Source of the DNA: a virus
DNA: 59,549 nt
IMG/VR virus record: IMGVR_UViG_3300042465_001115
Location: 1 to 59,549 of that record
Reading direction: 5' to 3' (one strand)
Shown here one piece after another: positions 4,446 through 59,549 of the stretch (its first letter is position 1; each line of letters opens with the position of its first letter). A program made the position numbers and the translations under genes. The notes below the pieces were generated by a model that was given only the letters and a program-made list of their open reading frames with translations, did no database searches and had not been told where the DNA came from.

Positions 4446-5447
4446 ATGAGCAACATCGTCCCCGTGAACATCCAGATCCCCGCCCACCTTGCTGCCCGCA
4501 TCGGTGCCCCGTCTACGCTGACGCAGTCCCTTGCCGGTGGCCTGTCCCAAGGTGGCGGCTTCCCCAAGATCTCCATCAAGTCCAGTCGCTTCCGTATCCA
4601 GGAGGGCGATGCTGAGACCGTGCTCGACACGCTGACCCTGGATGTGGTCATCGTCGGTGCCAACCCCAAGCTGTCGAAGACGTGGTACGCCAAGGCATGG
4701 TCCCAGGACTCCGAGCCGCAGGCACCTGAGTGCTTCTCGCTGGATGGTGTGAGCCCTGACATGCAGTCCACCGACCCGCAGAACGACCTGTGTGCGTCCT
4801 GCCCGCACAACGCATGGGGCTCCAAGATCGGTCCGTCCGGGCAGCAACTGAAGGCGTGCAGCGACCGCAAGCGTCTGGCTGTGGTGGCAGCGGACGATCC
4901 GTCCGGTCCGGTGTACCTGCTGGAAGTCACCCCGGCTGCGCTCAAGGGGCTGAACCAGTATCAGAACGAACTGCGTATGCGCGGCATCCCTGCCGAAGTG
5001 GTGAAGACCAAGGTGTCGTTCGACCCCAGTGCCTCGTTCCCGAAGCTGGCCTTCGGCTTCGGCGGCTTCATGGAGGCAGAGACGCAGCAAGTTGTTGACG
5101 CGCTCTTCGGCTCCGACCAAGTGCGTGAGATCACGGGCGAGATGGCCCGCCAACCGGTTGAGGTGCCGAAGATCGCGGCACCGAAGGCTGCACCGAAACC
5201 CGCTGTCGTGGCTGCTCCCGCCCCGGCTCCTACCCCTGCACCCGCCCCTGCACCGGCAGCGGCTCCGGTGGCTGCGAAGCGTGGTTTCGGTGCACCCAAG
5301 GCAGCGGCTCCGGCCCCTGCGCCTGTGGCGGCGAAGCCCGTGAAGGCAGCGGCTCCTGCACCGGCTGCGGCTCCTGCTGCGGCAGCGAGTTCGCTGGCCG
5401 ATGAGATCGCCGCGCTCGTCGGTGAGGTAGCGGCAGATGACGCCTAA
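4446..5447 (+). CDS. Cys-rich protein with Pro/Ala tail, candidate ssDNA-binding protein
   Basis: This 333-residue protein has three parts. Residues 1-95 are probably beta-rich. Residues 96-140 hold four cysteines (Cys96, Cys116, Cys119 and Cys138, with CASCP in the middle) that could bind a metal. A conserved-looking block follows to about 235. The C-terminus is a long Pro/Ala linker (APAPTPAPAPAPAAAP) ending in an acidic tip (EIAALVGEVAADDA). A flexible linker with an acidic tip is typical of ssDNA-binding proteins that recruit partners. Its place just before the primase-helicase fits. I see no definite OB-fold signature, so the function is inferred. Confidence 0.55.
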   Translation: MSNIVPVNIQIPAHLAARIGAPSTLTQSLAGGLSQGGGFPKISIKSSRFRIQEGDAETVLDTLTLDVVIVGANPKLSKTWYAKAWSQDSEPQAPECFSLDGVSPDMQSTDPQNDLCASCPHNAWGSKIGPSGQQLKACSDRKRLAVVAADDPSGPVYLLEVTPAALKGLNQYQNELRMRGIPAEVVKTKVSFDPSASFPKLAFGFGGFMEAETQQVVDALFGSDQVREITGEMARQPVEVPKIAAPKAAPKPAVVAAPAPAPTPAPAPAPAAAPVAAKRGFGAPKAAAPAPAPVAAKPVKAAAPAPAAAPAAAASSLADEIAALVGEVAADDA

Positions 5448-5721
5448 GCCCATCGACTTCGCCAAGGTCGAGGCTCTGCGCAAGCACATGCTACTGACGA
5501 CAACGGACATGGCCAAGTTGCTTGGTGTGTCCCGGATGACGTACTATGGCTGGGTCAGGGGGAAGGCCCTGCGCAAGACCAACGACGAGACCGTCCGCAC
5601 TATGCTTCGCAGGCTTCTGGCAGTCATGACCGACCACGCATGGCCCATGCCCGAAGTCATTGCCGCAGGCCAACCACAACGGTTCGCTCGGCTGAAGCAG
5701 ATCCTGGACGGTGATAAGTAG
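5437..5721 (+). CDS. Small helix-turn-helix protein
   Basis: This 94-residue protein overlaps the previous gene by 11 bases. Residues about 22-43 (TTTDMAKLLGVSRMTYYGWV) form a classic Cro/XRE-like helix-turn-helix. It is too short to carry a separate ligand-binding domain. It probably binds DNA as a regulator or helps load replication proteins, since it sits directly before the primase-helicase. No operator can be assigned from the sequence. Confidence 0.7.
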   Translation: MTPKPIDFAKVEALRKHMLLTTTDMAKLLGVSRMTYYGWVRGKALRKTNDETVRTMLRRLLAVMTDHAWPMPEVIAAGQPQRFARLKQILDGDK

Positions 5722-11600: not shown

Positions 11601-14600
11601 TCTCATCGATGTCGCGCTGGAAGCGGACCTTGGAGATGTTGTCCTTGCCGTCGTCGTACTCGATGTCGAAGCCATTGCGGAACTCTTCAGCAGAGACCAT
11701 GCCCCGCTTCTCAAGCTGATCCCGCACCTTCGTGTCGAGTTGGATGTTGCCCATCGCATCGACGTACACCAGATCATCGAAGGACTTGATGATGTCGTCG
11801 GTGGCTTGCTTGGAACGCAGCAGGGCAGCATGGGCCAGCAGTTCGCCAGCCTGGAGCTTCTCCTCCTCGGTCACACCGCCGCCGTATCCGAAGACGGTCG
11901 GTGTGTGGGTGAGCGTGGTCATGCGGCTGTACTTCGACAGCAACTGACGTGCGTACTGCTGCTGGTTCTCCAGCAGGCGGTAGATCTCGCTGAGGCCGAA
12001 GCTGCGACGGGCCTTGTTGCTCAGCGTCTGCACGTGCTCCAGCACACGAGCCACAGTACCAGGAACATCTTCCCGCTTGCCGAACGCCCGCTTGCCGAAC
12101 GCCTCCATCGCGCCGAGCAGACCGCTGCTGCCGCCGAAACGTTTGGCTCCGTTACCTACAGCGAACGCACGCTCCAGGGCATCGCCGTAACCAGCGCGGG
12201 CGTACATACCCGTACCACGATCCGACTCCATGAGTTGGATGTCTTCGGCCACAGCGCGGGCGTTGAAGAAATTGCCTCCCTCACCACGGCGCACGTACTT
12301 GCGTGCGAGGTTCACGAGGTAGCGAGCTTCGTCGTCCTGGAACTTCAGCCCCAGCTTGTTGAGGAAGTTCTTCAGCGTGTTCCAGATGCGTGCGATGAGC
12401 GACGTATCCAGCACGGCAGCGTTGTCAGCAACGTACTCCTCGATGGCTTCCAGCTTCGACATGCCCTGCACGGACATCATCGCCTCGACCGCAGACTGCA
12501 CGTCAGCGTCTGCGTCGTAGATCCGCTCCAGGATGGCGTCGAGTTCCTTGCCGGGGATCACGGCTCGGAAGCCGAAGTGGCCCATCGTCTCGTGCGCCAG
12601 GACGAACCGCAGTTGCTGCTCGGTGCGGACGAAGTCGGAGAAGACGATGACCTCCTTGCCGAACGAGTAGCCCACAGCCTTGATGGTGCCGAAGTCACCC
12701 TGCTCACGCGCAGCGGCTGCACGCCGGTACAACTCAGGGTTGCGGGCCTTCAGGTCTGCCGCGTTGGCGTAGATGTGCACCGTGGGCTTGCGCATCAGCT
12801 TCGACAGGAACCCCTTGACCAGCAGGCGGATGCGCCCCACCGGCACGTTCTTCGTGATGGGAGTACCGTCGTCGCGGAATGCAGCCCCGTTGGCATCGTC
12901 GTACTGGTCGTACAGCCGTCGAGATGGATCGAGGCGAGCGGCGGCTTCCTCAGCAGCCAGGGCAGCGGCTTCGTCCCGCTGTGCCTTCTCCAGTGCAGCC
13001 TGTTGCGTAGGCGTGAGTTGCTGCGTGCCGATGATGTACCGACCGGCAGACTTGATGATCTTCGGCTCGCCGTCCGCAGTGAAGTAGTCCGACAGCGGGT
13101 ACCCACGGACGATGTACTTGCGCCCCTCAGCAGAGACCTGAGCGTACAGCGTGCGGGCAGCATCAGCCAGCGACGTGAACTCGATGCCACGGGCGACCCT
13201 GACCTTCTGGTTGAGCCGGGTGATCTCCGACACACGGGAGATCAGATTGTCGATCAGCAACCCCAGCATGGACTGCGGGGTGTGCGCAGCACGGTAGACC
13301 GTGGACTCACTCTTCGATACGTTGCCAGGAGTTGAGCCGACAGTTGCCGGGGCCGCCACGTCACCGAGCTTGCGCTGCGTGTCCGCAGGGAGGTTGGACA
13401 GCTTCAGCTTGCCCGCAGCCACGAGGTCCTTGGCCTGCTCCAGCGACAACCCGCTCAGGGTGGAGCGGATGTTGAACAGCATCCCACGCGAGGAGGCGTA
13501 GGAGAACCAGGGCTTGGGCGTGCCCTTGTTGGCACCACGGGTGTAGACAGCCTCCAGCCGCATGGTCTCGTTGACCTGGGCCAGCACGACATCATCGAGC
13601 GCGGCACGCTGAGATTCGGACAGCGTGGTGTTGCCCAGCCATGCGCGGGCACGCTCAACCAGAGCGCGGGTGTTGGTGTCCTCGGTGGTGAAGAAGGCGT
13701 ACTCGGAGATGAGTCGCAGCGCCTCACGCACTTCCGGCGTGACCTTGGCAGTTACGGCTTCATCGACCGTGTTGATCGCATCGCCTAGGGCATCCGTGGG
13801 TTCTGCCGTGACTTCAGCCTCGGCGTCAGCGACGATCTGCGCAGCCAGTTCGCCCGTGGCTTGGTTCTTCGCAACGGCATCACGCCACCGCGTCTGCAAC
13901 TCAGCCGGAAGGTCAGTGAAGGGCATGTCCTCCATGCCCGCCCAGCGTTCTTCAGCAGTTTCAGTCGGGGCGGGGGCCGGAGGTTGTAGCCCCGTGAGCA
14001 CCCCAAAATCTTCGGTGCGAAGTTCTTTCTTGTCGGCACCAATTGCACGTGCCGCTTCTTCGCGATTGTAGAAGTTGCCCCTGGTGTCTACGAAGCCAGC
14101 TTCCCATTCTTTCAGATCAGATGCGTACCCACCGGGCAACTTGTACCGGTTGTGGACAGGTCCAGTCTCAACTACTTCCCCAGTTTTGCGGCTACGAAAC
14201 GCCGCTGCCTTCATTTGTGGGGCGGGGGCGGCGGCCCCCTCGGCTTTTGGGGGCGCGGGTTCCTTCTTCGGTGCAGGTGCCTTCTTCGGCGCTACTTCTT
14301 CTTTCTTCCCGCGCTTGAGGGCTGCACCTTTTCCGGCAGCTTTCTCTTCACTGGGTACTTTCTTTCCCACTCCTGCGCGAGTTTTGGCTGCTGGCTGTGG
14401 AGGTACCGGCGCTGCGCTTGGCTTTTGAACGGCACGGGGTTCTCCTTGCGAGATGGGACTTAACTCATTGGCGAGCTTCTGTGTCTCCTTGAAGTTGGAG
14501 AGGAAGAAGCGATCAAGTCCAGTGTTGCGGTACTCGGTCTTGTAAACCTCGCCATTGGGGTCAAGAAATTCAACGGCTTCCATGATGCCCGTGGTGACAT

Positions 14601-17079
14601 CGTTGCCGTTCTCCCAGACCGTACCGTAGACGACCAAGCGCCCACGATATTCCTCCACCCGGTCAACCACCACCTTCTGGCGACCACGGGTCGGGTTAGC
14701 CTTGGTGATGTTGTCATTGAATGTGAGCACATCCCCCTTCTGGGGAAGATTCTGGAGCTTGACAGCAGCTTGCCCAACAACAGCGCGAACAGTATCTGCA
14801 ACGCTTGGGGCCTCCTTCACTTCGACAGCAACGACCTTGGCACCACGCTTGAGTCCACGAGCACCAGCAGTCTTCTTCGCAGGTGCAGGAGTGGGTGCAG
14901 CAGCAACCTTCCTCTTGACACCCGCAGACTTGAGCGCGGGCAGCGAGGGCTCCCCTTCGGCGGTGAACATCGGCAGTTGCAGCGTTGCCTGCCGGATACC
15001 ACGGTCGGGCTGCGCAGCCGGAGCGGGCTGCATCTTGCGCCCACGGCGCAACTGCCCTGCCTTCGGCGGAACCGGAGCCTGACGGCGCGTGAACAGCGGC
15101 AACTGCCTCGGCTGACGGGGGGTGATGGGCACCATCGGCAGGGCCGGTGCGGGCGCAGGACGCTGCGCTTCCGCCATGATGTCGAGTTGCCGCTGGTTCG
15201 CAGCCTGGATAGCCATGCGCTCCAAGTCCGCTTCACGCTGCGCAGCCTCCTGTGCCTGCCGCTGGGCAAGGATCTGCTCCTCCTGGCGACGACGCATTGC
15301 ACGCTGCAACGCATTGCCCACAGCCGTGGGCGCAGTAGCCTCAGGTGCAGGCGGAGCGAACTGAAGCTGTCCTTGCGCGGCAGCTTCTTGCGGGGATAGA
15401 CCAGTGGGTGCCACAGCACCGGGCACAGGCGGAACTCCGGGCTGCATCCGGGTTGCCAGTTCCTGTGCCGAGATGGTGCCACCGAAGACATCGAGCACGC
15501 CCTGCGTGCCGGGAGCGCCAGGGGGCACGTTGCCCGCCTGACGCAGCATCTGGTCTGGGTATGCCTGCCCTTCTGGGGTGACCATCATCACCGTACCGCC
15601 GACAGGCGTAACGGCTGGCGTGGGTCCAGGGAGAAGCGGTATGGCAGGGGACCCAATACCAACGGGAGGAGTCGGAGGCGTGGGAGCGCCGGGAGGCCAA
15701 GGCGTCCCAGAAGGGGGCATCGGTCCAGGCTGGATCGGAGCGAGCGCAGTACCGGGTGTGGGCGGCACAGGAGGCGGCGGCTCCGTAGTCGACCCAGGGT
15801 CGAGCAGGTTCTCTGCCTTGCGTCCACGCAGGTTAGCCACAGCACCGATGGGACCGCCGACACCGAAGCCTGCGGCGAACGAGTTGATCAGGCGCTTCTG
15901 CGCTTCGTCGGACGTGAGGGACTGTCCGGAGATACCCAGTAGGAGCGCCTCCTGCCCAAGCTCCGTGGAGCCTTCGGCAGTACCACCTACAGCCCCGCCA
16001 ATCGTCCCACGCTTCAGAAGCTCACCTGCACGGGCGCGCAGTGGGGTACCGGGGGTGATCGCACGAGGAGCACCAAGCCCGCTGAGCACTCGGCTTGCAA
16101 GCAGGAACTCAGGCAGAGTCTCTATCGCCGCATATGGGATCGACCCAGCCAGAGCCTTCAGCCGCGCATCGACATCGTCAGCATTGGCCCCCTGGTCCCG
16201 CAGTTCGCCGTAGATGTCAGCCGCACCCGTGGCAAGGTTCTGTGTGTACGACGCAGCCGTGGCACCAGCAATGCCAGCAGCTTCGCGCAGCAACTTGTTC
16301 TCGGTAGCCGTGAGCGCCTCACCGGCCGCTCGCTTGCGTGCTGCCGCCATCACAGACTGCTTGAACGCAGACTTTCCAGCGAGACCAGCGAGGGCTGCGC
16401 CTGCACCAGCGAGTGGGTTGCCGCCTACTGCCGTACCAGCAGCGAAGCCACCGAGACCAACGGCCACGGACTCCAGCAGGTTGGGTCCCTGCTGCGCGAG
16501 GTTGGCAACGAACCAGTCGAGCACACCTCGGTTGGGCTCCCCGATGTCCGTGAACTGCCGCTCGAACGGAGAGGTCTTGGCGAGATCGGCTTCCTGTTGA
16601 GCGACGATGCGCCCACCAGTTTCTTCAGCACCGGCAAGCTGCAAGCCCCGGCCCGCCAGGGCCTGCATGGCGTCAACACCACGCCCGAAGTTCTTCTTTG
16701 CCAGCCGCCACAGACTGGGATTGCGGATCGACTCCAGGTACTGCCCATACGCCTGCGCGTCCAGGGGCACCCAATCCCCCGAAGACGGCAAGCCCGTGCC
16801 GGGGGCAGACAGGAGCTTTTCGGACTCCAGTGCACTCGCAGCGTCGTCGGCATCGAACACAATGCCTTGCACGAACACCTTGTTGGACGACGGGCTGACG
16901 GCGATGGAAACCGGTGCCTGCGCCGTAGGCATCGTGAACTGACTGCGTCCACCAAGGCGCTCACCCATCACGGCAAGATCCGCAGTGGACGGACCAAGTC
17001 CTGCCAACCCGGAACCCATAGGGCCGACAGGTGCAAACGGATCGGCGGGCTGTCCTAGGGTCAGTCCTGCGGTAGCCAT
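8620..17079 (-). CDS. Giant 2819-residue polyvalent virion protein, probably ejected
   Basis: This is the largest gene, about 14% of the genome. Visible parts in order: a Gly/Ala hydrophobic region (about 200-235); a long Pro-rich linker (about 430-490); a coiled coil (about 590-640); Lys/Ala-rich linkers; HETMGH (1496-1501), an HExxGH motif like the zincin-type domain in large phage polyvalent proteins; long helical regions; and a hydrophobic stretch near 2505-2530. Being last in the virion arm, after the transglycosylase and internal-protein genes, it resembles the huge ejected proteins of N4-, Bcep22- and LUZ24-type podoviruses. I found no RNA polymerase motifs. Which segments are enzymes is unknown. 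Confidence 0.8.
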   Translation of the reverse strand: MATAGLTLGQPADPFAPVGPMGSGLAGLGPSTADLAVMGERLGGRSQFTMPTAQAPVSIAVSPSSNKVFVQGIVFDADDAASALESEKLLSAPGTGLPSSGDWVPLDAQAYGQYLESIRNPSLWRLAKKNFGRGVDAMQALAGRGLQLAGAEETGGRIVAQQEADLAKTSPFERQFTDIGEPNRGVLDWFVANLAQQGPNLLESVAVGLGGFAAGTAVGGNPLAGAGAALAGLAGKSAFKQSVMAAARKRAAGEALTATENKLLREAAGIAGATAASYTQNLATGAADIYGELRDQGANADDVDARLKALAGSIPYAAIETLPEFLLASRVLSGLGAPRAITPGTPLRARAGELLKRGTIGGAVGGTAEGSTELGQEALLLGISGQSLTSDEAQKRLINSFAAGFGVGGPIGAVANLRGRKAENLLDPGSTTEPPPPVPPTPGTALAPIQPGPMPPSGTPWPPGAPTPPTPPVGIGSPAIPLLPGPTPAVTPVGGTVMMVTPEGQAYPDQMLRQAGNVPPGAPGTQGVLDVFGGTISAQELATRMQPGVPPVPGAVAPTGLSPQEAAAQGQLQFAPPAPEATAPTAVGNALQRAMRRRQEEQILAQRQAQEAAQREADLERMAIQAANQRQLDIMAEAQRPAPAPALPMVPITPRQPRQLPLFTRRQAPVPPKAGQLRRGRKMQPAPAAQPDRGIRQATLQLPMFTAEGEPSLPALKSAGVKRKVAAAPTPAPAKKTAGARGLKRGAKVVAVEVKEAPSVADTVRAVVGQAAVKLQNLPQKGDVLTFNDNITKANPTRGRQKVVVDRVEEYRGRLVVYGTVWENGNDVTTGIMEAVEFLDPNGEVYKTEYRNTGLDRFFLSNFKETQKLANELSPISQGEPRAVQKPSAAPVPPQPAAKTRAGVGKKVPSEEKAAGKGAALKRGKKEEVAPKKAPAPKKEPAPPKAEGAAAPAPQMKAAAFRSRKTGEVVETGPVHNRYKLPGGYASDLKEWEAGFVDTRGNFYNREEAARAIGADKKELRTEDFGVLTGLQPPAPAPTETAEERWAGMEDMPFTDLPAELQTRWRDAVAKNQATGELAAQIVADAEAEVTAEPTDALGDAINTVDEAVTAKVTPEVREALRLISEYAFFTTEDTNTRALVERARAWLGNTTLSESQRAALDDVVLAQVNETMRLEAVYTRGANKGTPKPWFSYASSRGMLFNIRSTLSGLSLEQAKDLVAAGKLKLSNLPADTQRKLGDVAAPATVGSTPGNVSKSESTVYRAAHTPQSMLGLLIDNLISRVSEITRLNQKVRVARGIEFTSLADAARTLYAQVSAEGRKYIVRGYPLSDYFTADGEPKIIKSAGRYIIGTQQLTPTQQAALEKAQRDEAAALAAEEAAARLDPSRRLYDQYDDANGAAFRDDGTPITKNVPVGRIRLLVKGFLSKLMRKPTVHIYANAADLKARNPELYRRAAAAREQGDFGTIKAVGYSFGKEVIVFSDFVRTEQQLRFVLAHETMGHFGFRAVIPGKELDAILERIYDADADVQSAVEAMMSVQGMSKLEAIEEYVADNAAVLDTSLIARIWNTLKNFLNKLGLKFQDDEARYLVNLARKYVRRGEGGNFFNARAVAEDIQLMESDRGTGMYARAGYGDALERAFAVGNGAKRFGGSSGLLGAMEAFGKRAFGKREDVPGTVARVLEHVQTLSNKARRSFGLSEIYRLLENQQQYARQLLSKYSRMTTLTHTPTVFGYGGGVTEEEKLQAGELLAHAALLRSKQATDDIIKSFDDLVYVDAMGNIQLDTKVRDQLEKRGMVSAEEFRNGFDIEYDDGKDNISKVRFQRDIDENSNVWKIYEEQRAAVNEAAIDLMLSNYEASQTEAKRVIGDLNARRRGANAFTEQDLAAIRKVAERYRNMRFDGADVASAAVNLNKRAAKESEDFLIAFGRALFNDDVLAAWMGDPRITGDMKRDFEQFQGAEYDDVRAALPGLRAKFSGSKDANEQQSFRVQKAVRDIFLFDLQAQNADYYAKRTILGAYVPFTRRGTEQVRLVAYDKRGNPVPLSENVRSILPYFQFESRSEATAAAEELETTFGGDNEWTLYDEDGAEVTVSLRPEVSRVRQSPDLTEAVNFNEFVYVLNRLNVNLAPEVRERIITTLTSQNSRARKNLQRSGTPGWDKDVVRSVSEHLETSAHVSAKKLYRNRLDDILLNNDNWFGDPERLQALQDAVDNAATDGERARAQREYDQYAHMYRYMASSAGKKTVKVAGEEVPTLGRGEDYREYAKEVLRWYSDTSNITDSTEDLFGEAGSRLKLVTVLMQLGGSVASAALNLISIPTHSLPYLASYNPARGFGGGYGMAKAANALWKALRDVRSPKLAEAEDFDKIMRDGTWAQYGLTEDEAQFLFAQTEQGTLQAAQFNALVGTARGKVFSNKAQAAVKLWMSMFSYTEQLNRRATALAAYRMEKDRALAQGLSEEQAIAEAAEAARTAVNTAQGEYAMFNRPTMARGPVLQYVFVYKQFAIITVELLRNMPKDGQLMMLGFLLLLSGLKGLPFAEDLMDIVDTIAQMLGLPMASVEKAAAEWIDSVAPGVSPYVMKGVLDKMTGATVSTRVGMGDLLPLTGAFRAGASPIQELQDFAGPVVGGMAGLVGTAASLTQYGAEVIGLRPDTTSLTGILRNAPLAAVRAFADGYAYMEDGRITNAKGQVVTADVGAHTVIARMMGFYPAIATEQNDIVRLSKYVAEYSKAVKTDFVQAYVKAKLDGDAERMAQIRADVDAWNVSAKGTGLEITQFARSANRAALEAERPTALRYLKSAPKNVRPETLEMLRLNGIDPQELTQP

Positions 17080-45498: not shown

Positions 45499-45952
45499 CC
45501 ACGACCTCCTGAACAGCCTCGATGGTACGCGCATCCTGGGGGTTGGAGCCCAGGTTGATGGTGATCTTCACACCACCGCCTTCAGCAGAGGCTGAGGCGG
45601 AGTCCTTGGGTTCCAGGCCACCCCACTTGACGGTGGACTTGATCAGGTCGGCCTTGACCGTGGGGGAGACTGCCGGATCGTGGATGAGGAGCCATGAGGT
45701 GGTGAGCAGTTCTTCGGCTTGTGCGCGTGCCTTGAGTCGGAACGTGAGCCCCTTGTCCCGGACCTCGGTTCGGTAGTGCTCGACCTTCTTGAGGAAGAGC
45801 GGGTCCTGGTTGAACGTGAGGAGGTCGGCGGGTTGGATCCTGTGGCGGGCGACGATCTCGCTCAGCGTCTCTCCACTGCCCTCAAGGGTGAGGGCCACAT
45901 CGAACGCCAGCCTGTCGTTCCACTTGGTCAGGTTCAGCGGGAGGTTGTCCAT
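45461..45952 (-). CDS. Candidate terminase small subunit
   Basis: This 163-residue protein is first in the virion operon, upstream of TerL. Residues about 14-58 form a helix-turn-helix-like segment (AFDVALTLEGSGETLSEIVA, then HRIQPADLLTF), followed by a helical middle (RAQAEELLTTSWLLIHDP) and a Gly/Asp-rich tail (GGGVKITINLGSNPQDARTI). DNA-recognition domain plus oligomerisation helices is the TerS pattern. Specific TerS family features are not certain. Position strongly supports the call. Confidence 0.65.
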   Translation of the reverse strand: MDNLPLNLTKWNDRLAFDVALTLEGSGETLSEIVARHRIQPADLLTFNQDPLFLKKVEHYRTEVRDKGLTFRLKARAQAEELLTTSWLLIHDPAVSPTVKADLIKSTVKWGGLEPKDSASASAEGGGVKITINLGSNPQDARTIEAVQEVVDVPADEYSESVQ

Positions 45953-46336
45953 GACGGGAGTGTAGGGGGAAGTGCGGGTATTGGGAAGTTACTGCGGTTT
46001 ACAGGATGGGGCTAACTTTACTGGGTGTGCGCCCCAGGCGCTAACTTTACACTCTGGTTTTTCGGGTCTTGGGTTGTGAGGTTGCCTACAACATAGGGGG
46101 GCCTCGCGCCACGCAATCCATGTACCCCCCTCCCCCCGGCCGGTCGGCCGTGCCGCTGGCTGGTCGGAGGCAAAGACCCTGCGGCGCAGTCGGGTATCCC
46201 TGCCCCGGCAACTTGACAATCTTGTCAGCCTGAGCGAATCTGGATTTGTCGACGGCGGACCCCGAAGTCGACAGGCCGGGTGACCCTCACCCAGGTCACT
46301 CGCTCTTTCACAATCTGGGTGCTGGAGGATTCGATC
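45953..46336. promoter_or_regulatory. Divergent control region between virion and early arms
   Basis: No gene fits in these 384 bases. It must drive leftward (terminase) and rightward (46337) transcription. Direct repeats GCTAACTTTAC lie at 46011-46021 and 46040-46050. Inverted repeats are TGACAA/TTGTCA (46214-46219 and 46222-46227), TGTCGAC/GTCGACA (46247-46253 and 46267-46273) and GTGACC/GGTCAC (46280-46285 and 46294-46299). TTGACA at 46213 could be a rightward -35 box, but no good -10 box follows. Operators for a phage or host regulator are likely. Confidence 0.65.
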
Positions 46337-46636
46337 ATGGGATCGAAGACCTTTGAAGGCAACGTGTCCATCGTTCTCAACACCAAGGGTGAGATCGCTC
46401 TCAAGCGTGACCCCGAAGGCGACTGGGACGCAAGCAAGGCGCAAGCCCTGCACGTCAAGATGGGCGAACTGGCGAAGAAGCACAAGGCCAAGATCAGCAG
46501 CTACGCGCTGTTCCAGGCCGAAGGCGGCACCGAGCCGGTTCTCCTGGCCAATCGCTACGGTAACCCGTACGTGGCGCTTCTCCCGAAGCGTGGTGAAGGT
46601 GGCGCGACCCGGAAGGGCGTGACGAAGCTGGCGTAA
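46337..46636 (+). CDS. Early gene A, paralogue of the gene at 47610
   Basis: This 99-residue protein is the first gene of the rightward arm. GGAGG lies 8 bases before the ATG; a longer frame runs into the control region. It shares with the 47610 product, in the same order, the F/Y-G-VS-NTKGE block, the K-P-EG block, PVLL, R-GPY-ALL and a final VTKLA. Predicted secondary structure is a small beta-rich N-terminus and one helix. The duplicate pair flanks the repeat-rich non-coding segment. Function is unknown; early expression suggests host control or anti-defence. Confidence 0.7.
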   Translation: MGSKTFEGNVSIVLNTKGEIALKRDPEGDWDASKAQALHVKMGELAKKHKAKISSYALFQAEGGTEPVLLANRYGNPYVALLPKRGEGGATRKGVTKLA

Positions 46637-46651
46637 GCCAGCAGCTAGGAA

Positions 46652-46676
46652 CCCGGTGGCCGGTAAAGCCACCGGG
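46652..46676 (+). terminator. Hairpin after early gene A
   Basis: CCCGGTGGC and GCCACCGGG form a perfect 9-bp stem with loop CGGTAAA, 16 bases after the stop of gene A. No T-run follows, so it may be an attenuator or an RNA-protecting structure between the two early genes. Confidence 0.6.
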
Positions 46677-46700
46677 CCTGCTTCTTCAACGGAGTGAACC

Positions 46701-46883
46701 ATGAAGCCAATCGAACTGAGGCTGACCCGCTGGGCGGGCAAGACCACGGTCTACACCGTGGACCGTGTCTACCCTGGAGTCGGCAACGTAGTGAAGGGAC
46801 TGCGGACCTTCCCGTCCGCAGTCGAGGCGCGCCAGTGGGCGCGTACCCATCACCCCGGAGTGCCACTGCTCCGGAATGTGTGA
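46701..46883 (+). CDS. Early gene B, small basic protein
   Basis: This 60-residue protein has CGGAGT 9 bases upstream of the ATG, like the gene at 47926. It is basic with several aromatic residues, and the central GVGN recalls GVGN in the 62-residue protein at 47926. The end GVPLLRNV parallels GIPATILMK there. The two may be paralogues in step with the paralogous pair before them, but similarity is weak. A terminator follows 5 bases downstream. Confidence 0.55.
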   Translation: MKPIELRLTRWAGKTTVYTVDRVYPGVGNVVKGLRTFPSAVEARQWARTHHPGVPLLRNV

Positions 46884-46887
46884 ACCG

Positions 46888-46923
46888 AGCCCGCCACCGC
46901 AAGGTGAGCGGGCTTTTCTTTTG
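46888..46923 (+). terminator. Rho-independent terminator ending the first early operon
   Basis: On the plus strand GCCCGCCACC and GGTGAGCGGGC pair as a 10-bp stem with one bulged A and a GCAA tetraloop, followed by TTTTCTTTT. The first early transcript should end here, and genes from 47610 onward need a new promoter. Confidence 0.85.
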
Positions 46924-47044
46924 TCCTCTCGCACCACGTCGCCCGCCTCAGGAGGGTCACTGCTTCTCGAAGAGAAGAAACTATACGTCGGGGGGTCACG
47001 GCACGCTTTACACCGCACCTCACGGCTGCTGTACAGTAGCAAGC

Positions 47045-47066
47045 GTCAAGTTATGGGTCAGAGCGT
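47045..47066. repeat. 22-nt direct repeat, copy 1
   Basis: This copy matches 47153-47174 at 19 of 22 positions and carries the GTCAAGTTATGGG core and an AGCGT end. Part of the iteron-like set in the putative origin. Confidence 0.8.
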
Positions 47067-47095
47067 GTCAACTTGTAAACAATCTATCTGAGAAC

Positions 47096-47123
47096 CTTAC
47101 AACTGTACAAACGGGCGTATAGT
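47096..47123 (+). promoter_or_regulatory. Possible rightward promoter in the repeat region
   Basis: CTTACA (47096-47101) and TATAGT (47118-47123) are spaced by 16 bases, and the palindrome at 47134-47160 lies just downstream, where an operator would block it. It would serve genes from 47610. The -35 box is only a moderate match. Confidence 0.35.
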
Positions 47124-47133
47124 TTAGATGGAT

Positions 47134-47160
47134 AACTTGACACTTTACATCTGTCAAGTT
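47134..47160. promoter_or_regulatory. Perfect inverted repeat, operator-like
   Basis: AACTTGACA and TGTCAAGTT form 9-bp arms with a 9-base spacer. The half-site recurs throughout the region and near 46213, indicating a dimeric protein with many sites. Confidence 0.7.
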
Positions 47161-47174
47161 ATGGGGAAAAGCGT
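47153..47174. repeat. 22-nt direct repeat, copy 2
   Basis: Partner of 47045-47066; three substitutions. Its first bases form the right arm of the palindrome at 47134-47160. Confidence 0.8.
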
Positions 47175-47481
47175 TATAAATCAAGGACTTAGCCGAGGTG
47201 AGCCACGGGGGAGTGGCCGGTATATAATCTATATAAGATAGAAAAGTAATGATTTTTATATACCCTTTTCAGTGGCGCGCACTTCCCACTTGACATTTCA
47301 TAATGCGGAACGCTCTCCCCCTCATCTCAAAATCTCAACATTACACTCAAAAATCTACCTTTTTTGGATCATTTCCGAAAAAGCCTTATGAATCAACCAC
47401 TTGCACGATCTACGTAAGGTTTCCCCACCTACCTTTTTCGGATCATTGCTCGCTTTACATAGATTGTTTACATGGACTTTG

Positions 47482-47539
47482 TCCAGGCAAAGCCTTAAAC
47501 TTGACGCTTATCCAGGGAAAGCGGCCCGCACTTGACGCT
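47482..47539. repeat. Two tandem units with ACTTGACGCT
   Basis: Units at 47482-47509 and 47511-47539 both begin TCCAGG-AAAGC and end ACTTGACGCT. Regular spacing of nearly three helical turns suggests that two protein molecules bind side by side. Confidence 0.75.
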
Positions 47540-47609
47540 CGGTCCGGCCCCGGCGAGACTGGCTCTGGCCCCCGGGCCGCTTTACAAACCCCTTTCAATG
47601 GAGCCAATC

Positions 47610-47894
47610 ATGGCGATGATGTACAAAGGTCAAGTCTCTGTTTACAGCAACACCAAGGGAGAACTCACTGTCAAGCCCGATGTGGAAGGCAAGTACAGTT
47701 TCTCCAACGTGGATGACCTTTACAAGGTCATGCAGAAGCTGAGCAAGGAGCACAAGATGCCAATCAAGGCGTTCAAGCCGGAAGCCGGTGGCAACTCTCC
47801 TGTCCTCCTCACCGACCGTTTCGGCAAGCCCTACCTCGCCCTGCTGTCGGCTTCCAAGGCCCCCTCCAAGCCGACCGTGACGAAGCTCGCCTAA
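47610..47894 (+). CDS. Early gene A', paralogue of the gene at 46337
   Basis: This 94-residue protein starts at the ATG at 47610, with GGAG 6 bases upstream; in-frame upstream starts lie in the repeat region. It aligns along its length with the 46337 product: the Y-G-VSV-NTKGE block, the helical middle with K-SKEHK, AGG-PVLL, R-FGKPY-ALL and final VTKLA. Both are basic at the end and lack cysteines. The duplicate is older, as the DNA sequences have diverged. Function unknown; probably a small early regulator or inhibitor. Confidence 0.7.
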   Translation: MAMMYKGQVSVYSNTKGELTVKPDVEGKYSFSNVDDLYKVMQKLSKEHKMPIKAFKPEAGGNSPVLLTDRFGKPYLALLSASKAPSKPTVTKLA

Positions 47895-47925
47895 CCTCCC
47901 TCAACCCTGGTTCATCGGAGTACCC

Positions 47926-48114
47926 ATGAAGATCACCACCCTGCCTTACAAGGCACCCCGTAAGCACCGGAGGCAGGAAGCCTTGCGCTTCTGTGTCAAG
48001 TACGGTGTCGGCAACACCATCTCCTACCGTTGGTATCGCCGTGACTCGGCGGCTGTCAACTTCCTCAACTCCCTGGCCGACCAGGGTATCCCCGCAACCA
48101 TCCTGATGAAGTGA
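47926..48114 (+). CDS. Early gene B', small basic protein
   Basis: This 62-residue protein has CGGAGT 7 bases upstream. It is highly basic (KAPRKHRRQEAL, then SYRWYRRDS) and ends in QGIPATILMK. It follows gene A' as B follows A, with similar spacing and leader. It may bind nucleic acid because of its charge. A 24-nt repeat overlaps its end and the start of the next gene. Confidence 0.55.
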   Translation: MKITTLPYKAPRKHRRQEALRFCVKYGVGNTISYRWYRRDSAAVNFLNSLADQGIPATILMK

Positions 48115-48128
48115 GAACCCTCATGGAC
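48105..48128 (+). repeat. 24-nt repeat, copy 1 (gene end and next start)
   Basis: The 24 bases are identical to 48601-48624 and include the end of gene B', a GTGAG segment and the start codon ATGGAC of the next gene. Confidence 0.95.
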
Positions 48129-48539
48129 TACGTCAGCACCATCCTACTGCTCCAACTCCACATCCTCCGGGCTTTCTTCAGGGCTCTCGATGTGGATGTC
48201 ACCAACCGGGACCTGGAGATCCAGGACCTCCTCTCCAAGATCCGTGACAGGGACTACAACGTAGTCGCTGTCATCAAGGCTGTCCGGAACTTCGGACGGG
48301 CTCAATACACCTTCGAGATCAACAAGAATCTCCACCCCAACTCGGTGGTCTACACCGCCATCAAGGAGGGCATTGCTGAGTTCGGCTCCTACCCTGAGTA
48401 CCGTGATGGTGTTGGGAACGCCGACACCATCCAGGATGCCCTCTTCGTCAGGGTCTTTCTGGACACTCCCCCTCGGTGTAGTCTGAAGGAGGCCAAGGAC
48501 ATCGTGGATCAACTGCGGTCCATGAGGCAGGACATCTGA
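48123..48539 (+). CDS. Hypothetical 138-residue early protein
   Basis: The ATG at 48123 is chosen because the same start context is repeated at 48619; an upstream GTG at 48111 is possible. The N-terminus is hydrophobic then helical (DYVSTILLLQLHILRAFFRA). The rest is mixed alpha/beta with RNFGRAQYTFEINKNLHP and SLKEAKDIVDQLRSM. I recognise no family. Early position suggests host-directed function. Confidence 0.6.
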   Translation: MDYVSTILLLQLHILRAFFRALDVDVTNRDLEIQDLLSKIRDRDYNVVAVIKAVRNFGRAQYTFEINKNLHPNSVVYTAIKEGIAEFGSYPEYRDGVGNADTIQDALFVRVFLDTPPRCSLKEAKDIVDQLRSMRQDI

Positions 48540-48556
48540 TCGACAGACCCTGGCTT

Positions 48557-48581
48557 ACAGGGCATCCACAAGGTGCCCTGT
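48557..48581 (+). other. Hairpin in the early-gene spacer
   Basis: ACAGGGCA and TGCCCTGT form a perfect 8-bp stem with a 9-base loop in the 79-base gap after the stop at 48539. No T-run follows. Perhaps an attenuator or RNA-stability element. Confidence 0.45.
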
Positions 48582-48600
48582 GGGATGTGGTCGTCACATC

Positions 48601-48624
48601 GATGAAGTGAGAACCCTCATGGAC
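48601..48624 (+). repeat. 24-nt repeat, copy 2 (leader and next start)
   Basis: Identical to 48105-48128, including the sequence from GATGAAGTGAG to the ATGGAC start. Confidence 0.95.
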
Positions 48625-50393: not shown

Positions 50394-51389
50394 ATGCGTG
50401 CATCCCTGCTGAAAGAGACCATCAAGTCCCTCTTCCCCATCAAGCGTACCCTGTGCATCGAGGGCAGCCCCGGTGGTGGCAAGACCACCATCGTGCAAGA
50501 AGTTGCAGCCGAACTCGGTGTGCCCTACATCGAACGGCACATGCCCACCATGCTGGTGGAGGACTTCGGCATCCTGTTCCCGTCGTCCGCAAGCGGCGAC
50601 TCGACACTGGCCTACAAGCTGCCCGACTGGTTCCCCGTCAAGGGCAAGGCACCGGAGCGGGGCATCCTGTGCTTCGATGACCGCAACCAAGCGTCTGCTG
50701 ACTTGCAGAAGGTGCTGGCTAACATCTGCCAAGCACGCAACTTGCACGGTGTCGAGATGCCCGATGGGTGGATGGTGGTCTCCACTGGCAACAGGCAGTC
50801 CGACCGTGCTGGTGCCAACCGGGTGCTGGGCCATCTGCGTAACCGCGAGACGGTCATCGAACTCGAAACCCACCTCGATGACTTCCGTGGATGGGCGATC
50901 AATCACGGTGTTCGTGCCGAGGTGATCTCGTTCATCTCCTTCCGTCCTGGTCTGCTGCATGACTACGACCCGCAGCGTGACAGCAACCCCACTCCCAGGG
51001 CATGGGTTGAGGGTGTGAGCGATGTGCTTGGCACGGTGCCTGCCGAGGCTGAGTACGAGTGCTTCAAGGGCACGGTCGGTGAGGGTGCAGCGGCTGAGTT
51101 CGTGGGGTTCCTCAAGATCTTCCGCAAGCTGCCCAACCCGGACGGTGTGCTGCTCAACCCCAAGACGAGCGACGTGCCCAGTGACCCGGCGACTCTCTAT
51201 GCCCTCAGTGGTGCCCTGGCGACACGGGCTACGGAGGCGAACATGGAGCGGTTCAACGACTACATCGAGCGGATGCCCAAGGAGTTCAGCGTGCTCTCGA
51301 TGAGCATGGCCTGCCGTCGTGACCCGGACCTGTGCAACACGGCAGCGTTCACCCGGTGGTCGGTCAACCACCAGGATGTTCTGTTCTGA
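50394..51389 (+). CDS. MoxR/CobS-like AAA+ ATPase
   Basis: This 331-residue protein has Walker A GSPGGGKT (24-31), Walker B ILCFDD (91-96), sensor-1 STGN (130-133), and a late helical lid. The insert PTMLVEDFGILFPS follows the pattern of MoxR/CobS-type ATPases. In bacteria these work with VWA proteins to insert metals or remodel complexes. Here the ATPase is followed by a DUF3150-like protein and a CobT/VWA-like protein, forming a known phage three-gene set. Substrate unknown. Confidence 0.85.
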   Translation: MRASLLKETIKSLFPIKRTLCIEGSPGGGKTTIVQEVAAELGVPYIERHMPTMLVEDFGILFPSSASGDSTLAYKLPDWFPVKGKAPERGILCFDDRNQASADLQKVLANICQARNLHGVEMPDGWMVVSTGNRQSDRAGANRVLGHLRNRETVIELETHLDDFRGWAINHGVRAEVISFISFRPGLLHDYDPQRDSNPTPRAWVEGVSDVLGTVPAEAEYECFKGTVGEGAAAEFVGFLKIFRKLPNPDGVLLNPKTSDVPSDPATLYALSGALATRATEANMERFNDYIERMPKEFSVLSMSMACRRDPDLCNTAAFTRWSVNHQDVLF

Positions 51390-52645: not shown

Positions 52646-53794
52646 ATGACAAGCGTAGTAGCCGTCAAGCCCAAGACCCTGGACCCCCGCAAGGAGTCCA
52701 CCCTCAAGACCCGCCTTGCCAAGGCGAAGACTGCTCTCATCCTGGAGCATCCCTTCGTCGGCACGGTGGCCCTGTCCATGCCCTTCACCCTGTCGTTCGA
52801 CATCCCCACGGCAGCGACGAACGGCAAGCGTGTGCTGTTCAACCCGGAGTTCATCGACAAGTTGTCGGATGAGGAACTCAAGTTCCTCGTGGCCCACGAG
52901 TGCTTCCACCCCATGCTGGAGCACAACTACCGGCGACATGGCCGTGACCACGGGAAGTGGAACCGTGCCGCTGACTACGTGATCAACCAACTGTTGACCG
53001 ACGAGAAGATCGGCAAGATGCCCAGCATGGGCCTGCTGGACAAGAGCATCTACATCGCAGGGCACGGCACCTCGGACGGGATCTACAACATCCTGCCCGA
53101 AGATCAGGGCGACGGGCAAGGACCCGGCCCTCTCGATGACTGCGAGGACGCCGAGGGTACTCCTGCTGACCAAGCGCAACAGGCTGCGGAGTGGAAGGTC
53201 CGTGTGGCCCAGGCTGCACAGGCTGCTCGGATGATGGGCAAGATGTCGACCAACATGGAGCGTGTGGTCGGTGAGGTGTTGCAGCCCAAGGTGGACTGGC
53301 GAGACGTGCTGCAACGCTTCCTCGTGAAGTGCAAGGATGACTCTCGGTCCTGGGCTCGGTTCAACCGACGCTTCCTGCCGCAGGGTCTGTACCTGCCCAC
53401 TGCCAGTGGTGAGCGCATGGGTCCCATCGTCTTCGCTGTGGACTGCTCAGGGTCCATCGGTGACAAGGAGATCGCCCAGTTCGCTGCCGAGATCCGCGTG
53501 GTCAAGGAGGACCTCAACCCCGAGTGCATCCACGTGGTGTACTTCGACAGTGAGGTGTGCCACGCCGAGCAGTACGGTCCTGACGATCCGCTGGACATCA
53601 AGCCCCACGGTGGTGGAGGGACCGACTTCGCTCCGGTGTTCGCTCACATCGTGGAGCAGGGCATCGAGCCCGTTGCCATTGCGTTCCTCACCGACCTGTG
53701 CTGCAACAGCTTCGGCATCCAGCCTGCGGCTCCCGTCCTGTGGGTCACCACGGAACCGGGCAAGGCACCCTTCGGTGAAGTGGTGGAGATGTGA
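52646..53794 (+). CDS. CobT/VWA-like protein with metallopeptidase-like N-terminus (DUF2201-like)
   Basis: This 382-residue protein has two parts. The N-terminus carries an HExxH motif (HECFH, His84, Glu85 and His88) followed by WNRAADYVIN, typical of DUF2201. The C-terminus is a VWA-like domain with MIDAS DCSGS (Asp266, Ser268, Ser270) and the following GGGGTDFAPVF. An acidic linker joins them. In the family, VWA proteins partner with MoxR/CobS ATPases. Peptidase activity is only predicted. It ends with a TGATG overlap to the next gene. Confidence 0.8.
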   Translation: MTSVVAVKPKTLDPRKESTLKTRLAKAKTALILEHPFVGTVALSMPFTLSFDIPTAATNGKRVLFNPEFIDKLSDEELKFLVAHECFHPMLEHNYRRHGRDHGKWNRAADYVINQLLTDEKIGKMPSMGLLDKSIYIAGHGTSDGIYNILPEDQGDGQGPGPLDDCEDAEGTPADQAQQAAEWKVRVAQAAQAARMMGKMSTNMERVVGEVLQPKVDWRDVLQRFLVKCKDDSRSWARFNRRFLPQGLYLPTASGERMGPIVFAVDCSGSIGDKEIAQFAAEIRVVKEDLNPECIHVVYFDSEVCHAEQYGPDDPLDIKPHGGGGTDFAPVFAHIVEQGIEPVAIAFLTDLCCNSFGIQPAAPVLWVTTEPGKAPFGEVVEM

Positions 53795-54035: not shown

Positions 54036-54692
54036 ATGGCAGTCGTACGAATCTCTGACTCCCTGAAGAATGACATCGTCAACAACGCACGTAACTCTTT
54101 CCGATCCCAGGTGATCGCAGTGGCTCACTTCCAGTGCCCGCCTGAGGTGATGACGGGTGACCGCATCCTCAATGCATTCATCGGGGTGGAGAACCTGGAG
54201 CGCATGAACTTGTTGCCCGTTGGGTACTTCAAGGAGGTGGAGAAGGTCAAGATCATGCGCATCATGACCTCCAGTTCCAGCAACATCCTGCTCCAGAAGG
54301 ACTTCCCCCTCAGCGGCAAGCGACGTGTGCCCTACGATCCGCAGTCCAACAACATCCAGTACATAAGCAACGGCTACTCCCCGACGTTCCAGGCAACGCT
54401 GGATCCGTTCTGGGATGAGATGCGTGCCCTGGCCATTGCGTGGCATGAGAAGAAGACCGCTACGGCGAAGCGGCAGGAGGAGTTCGTGACCTCCGTCAAG
54501 ACCATCCTCGGTCAGTTCACCACGCTGGCTCCTGCCCTCAAGGCGTGGCCTGCCCTGTGGGATCTTGTACCGGAGAAGGACAAGGAGCGGCACCGCACCG
54601 TGGTGTCCAGGGAGAAGGCTTCCGCTGACCTGTCCGGGGTGGACCTCAACAAGCTCACGGCCCTGGCTACCCAGGCCAAGATGATCCGCTGA
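54036..54692 (+). CDS. Hypothetical 218-residue protein next to the CobS/CobT cassette
   Basis: The ATG at 54036 has AGGAG 5 bases upstream; the GTG at 54030 is less likely. The protein is helical at both ends. The segment FTTLAPALKAWPALWDLVPE is a pattern seen in phage proteins near nucleotide-modification genes (Nmad5-like), but without diagnostic residues. The function is unknown. Position after the cassette and before the polymerase makes a role in DNA metabolism plausible. Confidence 0.55.
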   Translation: MAVVRISDSLKNDIVNNARNSFRSQVIAVAHFQCPPEVMTGDRILNAFIGVENLERMNLLPVGYFKEVEKVKIMRIMTSSSSNILLQKDFPLSGKRRVPYDPQSNNIQYISNGYSPTFQATLDPFWDEMRALAIAWHEKKTATAKRQEEFVTSVKTILGQFTTLAPALKAWPALWDLVPEKDKERHRTVVSREKASADLSGVDLNKLTALATQAKMIR

Positions 54693-59247: not shown

Positions 59248-59549
59248 CCAACCCGAAGCCCTGCGGCTGGCTGATGCGCTTGAAGCGTACTGGGGCGCAG
59301 ACCTCGGCCACGACCGCGAACGACAAGCCGCCGCCGAACTGCGCCGTTTGCACGCGGAGAACGAGCGCCTGCACCAGATCAACCAGTCGCACGAGATGAA
59401 GCTGTCCGTGCGTGGGTATGAGATACAGATCGAAGACCTGAGGTTGGCGCACGCTGAACTGCACGCCCTGAACGGGAAACTGCTGGAGGCGTTGGTCAGC
59501 TTCACAAAGTCCGACAACCTCAGGTCTTCGATCTGTATCTCATACCCAC
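59240..59549 (+). CDS. Small coiled-coil accessory protein, N-terminal part (gene spans the contig junction)
   Basis: The ATG at 59240 overlaps the previous stop (ATGACTGA). The frame runs MTDQPEALRLADALEAYWGA into the terminal repeat at 59390, and continues at base 1 of the contig to the stop at 204, giving 117 residues. The codons after 59515 (NLRSSICISYP) come from the fold-back and are not part of the true protein. Confidence 0.7.
   Translation, partial: MTDQPEALRLADALEAYWGADLGHDRERQAAAELRRLHAENERLHQINQSHEMKLSVRGYEIQIEDLRLAHAELHALNGKLLEALVSFTKSDNLRSSICISYP
59390..59515. repeat. Right copy of 126-bp terminal direct repeat
   Basis: Identical to 1-126. It joins the two halves of the junction gene in frame, which supports circular continuity. 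Confidence 0.95.
59515..59549. repeat. 35-nt fold-back of the terminal sequence
   Basis: The last 35 bases are the reverse complement of 23-57 and therefore of 59412-59446. They would pair as a 35-bp stem with a 68-base loop. They break the junction gene, so they are probably an artefact of sequencing, amplification or assembly. Confidence 0.9.

Follow-up and report, generated by a model that had tools for sequence, protein, structure and literature searches.

Analysis of a 59,549-bp IMG/VR virus contig (the window, meaning the whole stretch of DNA analysed here) revealed a gene-free, AT-rich array of conserved repeats that, judged from its sequence, is probably the phage's own DnaA-independent replication origin, with an early promoter embedded at its right edge. 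The array fills a 726-bp gap between two paralogous small-gene cassettes, and both the 50-bp and the 500-bp stretch with the highest AT content in the genome lie within it (Table 1). The origin reading was supported by clustered conserved sites, an AT core, an orientation flip of one site family across this core, flanking IHF-consensus sites, the lack of any excess of DnaA boxes and the presence of a primase-helicase gene. The first-pass annotation had interpreted the interval 46924-47609 as either a replication origin or an early control region. There was evidence for both halves of this proposal, since the origin reading, with a phage-encoded initiator, was the best supported and an early promoter is predicted within the array; the proposal therefore stands in part, with four corrections.

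Table 1. Coordinates of the predicted features in the window
Feature	Position	Strand	Basis or remark
Candidate T-site binder: HTH protein, 94 aa (HTH_3/HTH_17/excisionase-like)	5437..5721	+	Pfam HTH_3 E 3.7e-5, 24.1 bits against a cut-off of 23
Candidate initiator: archaeo-eukaryotic primase + DUF927 (Cch/SaPI Rep-like) helicase, 957 aa	5760..8633	+	DUF927 E 1.4e-24
Outlying T-site AACTTTACA, between terS and gpA	46043..46051	+	16.9 bits
Putative promoter P_A, TTGACA-N17-GAATCT(G), -35 = T-site	46213..46241	+	one of two genome matches of TTGACR-N17-xAxxCTG
gpA, left bookend, family F1, 99 aa	46337..46636	+	paralogue of gpB
gpA60, second gene of left cassette	46701..46883	+	ORF; related sequences in L010 and L025
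Gene-free array, proposed replication origin and early promoter	46884..47609		most AT-rich 500 bp of genome; conserved in relatives
Intrinsic-terminator-like hairpin ending left cassette, GCCCGCCACCGCAAGGTGAGCGGGC + T-rich tail	46889..46923	+	read from sequence
Hairpin CTTCTC-GAA-GAGAAG, 6-bp stem, 3-nt loop	46963..46977	+	DNA fold z -2.94
G-element CTATACGTCGGGGGGTCACGGCACG, core ATACGTCGGGGG at 46983-46994, single copy	46981..47005	+	core pattern in at least 119 IMG/VR stretches
T-site	47044..47052	-	14.2 bits
T-site	47066..47074	-	11.2 bits
U-site ACAATCTA	47079..47086	+	16.2 bits
Three overlapping/inverted T-sites (palindrome of the first-pass annotation)	47134..47160	47134-47142 +, 47141-47149 +, 47152-47160 -	folding and matrix
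IHF-consensus site AATCAAGGACTTA	47179..47191	+	one of two WATCAANNNNTTR matches in window
AT-rich core, candidate unwinding element	47221..47270		82% AT, genome's most AT-rich 50 bp; includes U-site 47224-47231
T-site	47287..47295	+	12.7 bits
Weak U-site AAAATCTA	47350..47357	+	10.2 bits in full model only; below 10 in leave-window-out model
IHF-consensus site AATCAACCACTTG	47391..47403	+	other of two WATCAANNNNTTR matches
U-site ACGATCTA	47405..47412	+	14.9 bits
T-site	47413..47421	-	11.3 bits
U-site TAGATTGT, opposite orientation	47460..47467	-	17.4 bits
T-site	47498..47506	+	13.1 bits
Putative promoter P_B, TTGACG-N17-GAGACT(G), -35 = last T-site (47529-47537)	47532..47560	+	second of two genome matches
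gpB, right bookend, family F1, 94 aa	47610..47894	+	AF2 model
gpB62, second gene of right cassette	47926..48114	+	relatives found

Bases 59390-59522 of the window duplicate bases 1-133 at 98.5% as a terminal direct repeat, and the final 27 bases fold back onto the start; at the extreme end, bases 23-57 recur in inverted orientation. Because of this 133-bp repeat and fold-back the genome is most likely circular, of ~59.39 kb after closure, and the inverted copy is a probable assembly artefact. From TerS/TerL the late genes point leftward (45952 to 8620), and the replication genes point rightward from 46.3 kb, across the join, to 8.6 kb. The strand divergence point lies outside the interval of the first-pass annotation, with terS leading leftward from 45952 and the rightward gpA-gpA60 cassette preceding the array. 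The GC skew, suggested with that annotation as a check, had its detrended minimum at 48474, near the array, and so does not contradict an origin, but it is confounded by gene strand; the AT-skew minimum was at 46378. Skew is non-diagnostic here, given that the coding strand changes at this point. Elsewhere in the genome, the early region encodes an AAA ATPase paired with a DUF2201 metallopeptidase/VWA-like protein (50394-51389 and 52646-53794), an exact 24-nt direct repeat occurs at 48105-48128 and 48601-48624, and the product of 54036-54692 has weak similarity to nucleotide modification associated domain 5 (Nmad5; E 9e-4, under the Pfam cut-off), making DNA modification a possible function. 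An Rfam search gave no match and a tRNA search found none.

The clade is common in IMG/VR, with at least 598 confirmed TerL relatives, 80 loci of which were kept from the scan. No close isolate was present in the phage collection, the nearest being Pseudomonas phage Rollin (TerL 46%); Rhizobium phages RHph_TM3_14A and kin followed at 39% for TerL and 56% for the capsid. Blastn of 46000-48500 against 50,697 phage records, and a search of 46960-47560 against 72,556 plasmids, gave no match. The ATACGTCGGGGG pattern was not found in Rollin or RHph_TM3_14A at up to one mismatch, and the most AT-rich part of the Rollin stretch read held no comparable array. RHph_TM3_14A has a 0.77-kb gene-free AT-rich gap (L197:19355-20125) with different repeats; that this is an equivalent origin is possible, the likeness being suggestive only. 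A host search in genome contigs returned five loci, one on a chromosome and the other four in MAGs from mixed groups, and no usable host.

The repeat families described by the first-pass annotation were all present in the sequence. The 27-bp palindrome with perfect 9-bp arms was recovered, its arms reaching 11 pairs on folding, as were three copies of CGCTTTACA, the paired motifs (two CTACCTTTTT and two GGATCATT), a 22-nt repeat pair at 47045/47153 (86% identical) and the AT tract; the most AT-rich 500-bp windows all fell within the array. The half-site ACTTGAC(A/G) does occur in both orientations; the reported tally of at least seven was slightly high, as the interval holds exactly six (47044-, 47135+, 47152-, 47288+, 47499+ and 47530+). 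The whole window has nine, against a mean of 3.7 in whole-window shuffles, one of 100 of which reached nine.

Site families were then defined from relatives. Among the 80 TerL loci, 11 had a gpB start and sufficient flank (L069 being a near-duplicate of L065), and alignment of the window with 10 of these revealed blocks of strong conservation. The strongest, CYATACGTCGGGGG followed by (G/T/C)T...RGC, had been missed by the first-pass annotation and is referred to here as the G-element. From 133 regions with 650 bases 3' of this element, 61 non-redundant regions were obtained by 12-mer sharing, 60 of them full-length and used for later counts; carrying the G-element was the condition for choosing the regions, whereas their other features played no part in the selection. 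Refined matrices from the 61 regions gave two families, T (AACTTKACA) and U (AAYRATCTA). ACTTGACR and CTTTACA, previously listed as separate half-sites, thus form one motif. Enrichment of 8-mers was pronounced in the same 61 regions: ACTTGACA was seen 108 times (1.65 expected), ACTTTACA 133 times (3.63), ACAATCTA 109 times (2.06) and ATAATCTA 100 times (2.83). Per-region medians were 7.5 T-sites and 6.5 U-sites, compared with means of 0.2 and 0.1 in shuffles that keep neighbour frequencies (60 regions). A U-site of at least 10 bits was absent from four of the 60 regions (L173, L182, L116 and L135), and a T-site from L090. The repeats are thus conserved among relatives, and this suggested check does not refute the earlier interpretation. 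When the matrices were rebuilt without the window and its closest kin (L003, with L002 also barred) and applied at a threshold of at least 10 bits, the array contained 10 T-sites and 4 U-sites, compared with 0.14 and 0.06 in 1000 shuffled arrays. With these models, 10 of the window's 16 T-matches and all four U-matches fell within the 726-bp array, which is 1.2% of the genome.

The arrangement of the two families differed. T-sites peaked in the first 200 bases past the G-element and again at 400-525, with no fixed phasing found, and U-sites were spread over 50-500 and often recurred every 9 bases. When divided at position 275, U-sites were oriented 119+/28- on the left and 67+/125- on the right, and within regions the flip across the AT core was positive in 42 of 45, zero in one and reversed in two; these regions are mutually related and not independent, though the per-region count is clear. 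T-sites had no such flip (158+/103- left, 85+/33- right). The origin-like symmetry thus belongs to AAYRATCTA, a repeat the first-pass annotation had not named. The window's own U symmetry is weak (47079+, 47224+, weak 47350+ and 47405+ versus 47460-).

We also examined matches to WATCAANNNNTTR, the IHF consensus, a string that occurs in 15 published papers. These analyses revealed 91 matches compared with 3.5 expected, distributed over 55 of the 60 regions. The matches clustered on either side of the 50-base bin 250-300, which had none; at least two were present in 31 of 60 regions, and in 30 of 60 they stood to the left as well as to the right of the AT core. In the full 59.5 kb of the window, both strands counted, just two matches occur, and they flank the AT core. 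The sites prefer ..AC within the free spacer, for which reason we call them IHF-like, and a protein other than IHF may bind these predicted sites. DnaA boxes (consensus TTWTNCACA) were absent from the window and not enriched in the 60 regions (9 versus 6.6 expected).

The candidate initiator scored 87.7 bits against PF06048 (DUF927; cut-off 22.6). It matched NCBIfam SCCmet_Cch1 (NF047345) at E 2.4e-9 and 36.3 bits, far under the equivalog cut-off of 700, and is therefore a relative of that protein and not the named protein itself. Its AF2 model is good only at the ends and poor in the middle (mean pLDDT 57.8). Residues 1-199 matched AEP primases, including cyanophage S-2L PrimPol (6zp9; Z 15.8, 174 aligned, rmsd 2.8) and RSF1010 RepB' (3h25; Z 11.9), and residues 475-943 matched the SCCmec Cch helicase (5dgk; Z 16.4, 351 aligned, rmsd 5.4) and SaPIBov1 Rep (8tch; Z 14.8, 324 aligned, rmsd 7.1), the 8tch alignment extending to residue 942, where pLDDT is mostly 40-70. 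The protein is encoded in 30 of 34 records searched, the exceptions being G013 and three contigs of 25-37 kb, and the gene for the HTH protein lies directly upstream of it in 77 of 80 loci. SaPI Rep is reported to recognise its iteron origin via the C-terminal domain, with Cch (DUF927) described as its relative and both helicases as initiators (PMC7581432), and fusions of a primase with DUF927 have been predicted to act as replicative helicases in mobile elements (PMC5862659). We infer that the primase-helicase pairs with the origin sites. Counting against the origin, its gene does not adjoin the array, being ~17.5 kb away on the circle (5760-8633 versus 46884-47609), whereas SaPI and pRN1 origins adjoin the rep gene.

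The main rival, which we consider unlikely, is that the array serves transcription control only, with a phage repressor or activator acting through the T- and U-sites to time the early genes together with P_A and P_B, while replication would begin elsewhere. Two T-site copies (46213 and 47532) are indeed predicted -35 boxes ahead of the flanking small genes; TTGACR-N17-xAxxCTG occurs only at these positions in the window (0.26 expected). Of 50 distinct gpB upstreams, 48 contained ACTTGACR, and 39 of these 48 had xAxxCTG at exactly 17 nt, with none at 12-16 or 18-22. Ahead of gpA, ACTTGACR was present in 47 of 56, with the partner at 17 nt in 29 of 47 and at 16 nt in 6 of 47. The P_A spacer frequently contains an inverted T half-site resembling an operator, and the conserved HTH protein beside the primase-helicase would suit a regulator as well. 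The proposed -10 elements of P_A and P_B are atypical, and a sigma-70 promoter scan of 45500-48600 was uninformative (1 match, 1.1 expected); a scan of the same interval missed the terminator-like hairpin that ends the left cassette, which is similar in the aligned relatives. Most sites are nevertheless not promoters: only 1 of 70 array-internal ACTTGACR copies had a -10-like partner at 17 nt, which argues for a -35 role in a few T-sites and for some other role in the rest. Nor would a regulator call for a 600-bp stretch that combines an AT core with inverted U sets and bilateral IHF-type sites. A hairpin promoter for a virion RNA polymerase was considered for the giant 2819-aa protein (8620-17079) and rejected, as this PLxRFG-domain protein had no RNA polymerase match and no polymerase signature.

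The genes served by these putative promoters form a paralogous pair, gpA and gpB being 42% alike over 95 aa. In 70 loci with 1.4 kb to the left and 1.7 kb to the right of the G-element, the same HMM family was present on both sides of the array in 50 (F1/F1 34, F2/F2 13 and F3/F3 3), with different families in 4, one side only in 15 and neither in 1. Single-linkage gave 54 of 70 and direct BLASTP 49 of 70, the HMM count being preferred; when F1 only was counted, it occupied both sides in 29 of 65. At a control point 3.6 kb downstream, a direct paralogue pair was detected in 0 of 31 loci. F1, F2 and F3 are mutually unrelated (~0.1% probability of relatedness by profile comparison). Family F1 had no match in PHROGs, nor in Pfam above cut-off, and a search with F1/gpB of the 50,697 phage records found none. 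A gpB model built from 44 sequences (the window's two and a selection of the listed relatives) had a beta-beta-alpha-beta-beta fold (pLDDT 77.6) with no convincing PDB match (best Foldseek E 0.61, best Z 2.7).

The G-element lies directly 3' of the left cassette's terminator and was found in at least 119 stretches by an exact core-pattern scan of IMG/VR, in most records as one copy on one strand. Second copies with one mismatch were seen in G010 (L129 record) and G013 (L083 record), at distances of 2.1 kb and 0.18 kb from the original copy, respectively. A hairpin of at least 5 pairs preceded it in 33 of 92 distinct upstreams of relatives, compared with ~7% of shuffles, and DNA folding reached p ≤ 0.1 versus shuffles in 26 of 92 upstreams compared with 7 of 92 downstream controls; the stem sequences vary among relatives. 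The pattern was present, at up to one mismatch, in 7 of 16 records found via the primase-helicase, and the element is therefore narrower in distribution than that protein. L067 and L071 (TerL 85% identical, primase-helicase 50-51% identical) lack the G-element yet retain the U orientations (+ on the left, - on the right), near-perfect T dyads and a core of 29-33% GC, so the T/U array is more conserved than the G-element. L067 has a single IHF-type match, at its left edge, and the conserved site on both sides was not seen there. A unique G-rich element with IHF-type sites recalls lambda cos or attP, and the array lies ~1 kb from terS; it might accordingly be a packaging (cos/pac) or integration (att) site, with the G-element as cut or core and the IHF-type sites folding it. 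We regard this as very unlikely, because the G-element is missing from L067 and L071, with their 85% identical TerL, while the array persists, because no integrase was found among the scanned proteins (a subset of ORFs) and because the window's 133-bp end repeat is situated elsewhere. Non-coding gaps of GC-rich phages tend to be AT-rich, but an origin of the repeats by chance or mutation in such a gap can be practically dismissed given the 0.2 T-sites and 0.1 U-sites per shuffled region against medians of 7.5 and 6.5, and given that neither the U flip nor the exact promoter spacing is compositional.

Under the origin reading, the C-terminal end of the helicase would bind the two inverted sets of U-sites, and a head-to-head pair of helicase hexamers would assemble on the AT core, the flanks of which would be wrapped by IHF or a similar bender. 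The core would then melt and the fused primase would lay the first primers. A second protein would occupy the T-sites, the likeliest candidate being the HTH protein, whose gene neighbours that of the primase-helicase; by covering the -35 boxes of P_A and P_B, this protein would link the origin's state to early transcription of the small genes on either side.

Several known systems resemble parts of this arrangement. SaPIBov1 Rep and SCCmec Cch replicons, with DUF927, MCM-like self-loading helicases and iteron origins, share the helicase fold (residues 475-943) and, like the phage array, have short repeats with an AT-rich core. The phage protein differs in having a primase fused in front, its origin is remote from the initiator gene whereas theirs lies just downstream of rep, its repeats differ, and it has two site families, the G-element and paralogous bookend genes. 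On our best reading the array would work like a SaPI/Cch-type origin; we do not class it as one because it is not beside the initiator gene. In lambda O and iteron plasmid origins, initiator-type repeats are likewise clustered with an AT-rich region, and with IHF in some (PMC5043065); in contrast, the phage window has no DnaA box and its relatives no excess, the T-sites have no fixed phasing, and the candidate initiator is itself a helicase-primase. The pRN1-type AEP plasmids (ORF904/ORF56) also have a primase-helicase fusion adjoining a small DNA-binding protein gene (PMC4234260); they differ in an SF3 helicase and a ~100-nt stem-loop downstream of the gene, compared with a 600-bp site array far from it. 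RSF1010 RepB', which matches the phage primase domain, is described as starting primers beside a hairpin (PMC4434180, PMC4234260), and at ssiA/ssiB of the RSF1010 oriV, as in the window and some of its relatives, a hairpin is followed by a conserved 3' flank (PMC4434180). The G-element hairpin as an RSF1010-like priming site is a lead, although RSF1010 has one ssi per strand whereas the phage element is single-copy, on one strand, and has a hairpin of at least 5 pairs in only the 33 of 92 relatives.

A more far-reaching proposal, which we advance tentatively and think unlikely, is a new origin type in which a Cch/SaPI-class primase-helicase is loaded by two inverted iteron sets, its fused primase reads the hairpin-CYATACGTCGGGGG element as a single-strand start site, and the interchangeable bookends, exchanged as a pair among three unrelated families, are part of origin function or inheritance. 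A limited literature search did not find the string ATACGTCGGGGG, and one combining phage, replication origin, iteron and podovirus returned nothing; the novelty of the hairpin-CYATACGTCGGGGG element and of the paralogous flanking pair rests solely on this limited search. Bookend genes that come in pairs and can be swapped would surprise a specialist. To our knowledge, origins have been mapped in few phages outside model systems. Taken together, the T-sites, U-sites and G-element would provide a recognisable origin signature and, with a named candidate initiator, initiation by a fused primase-helicase would become directly testable using a 600-bp fragment and one protein.
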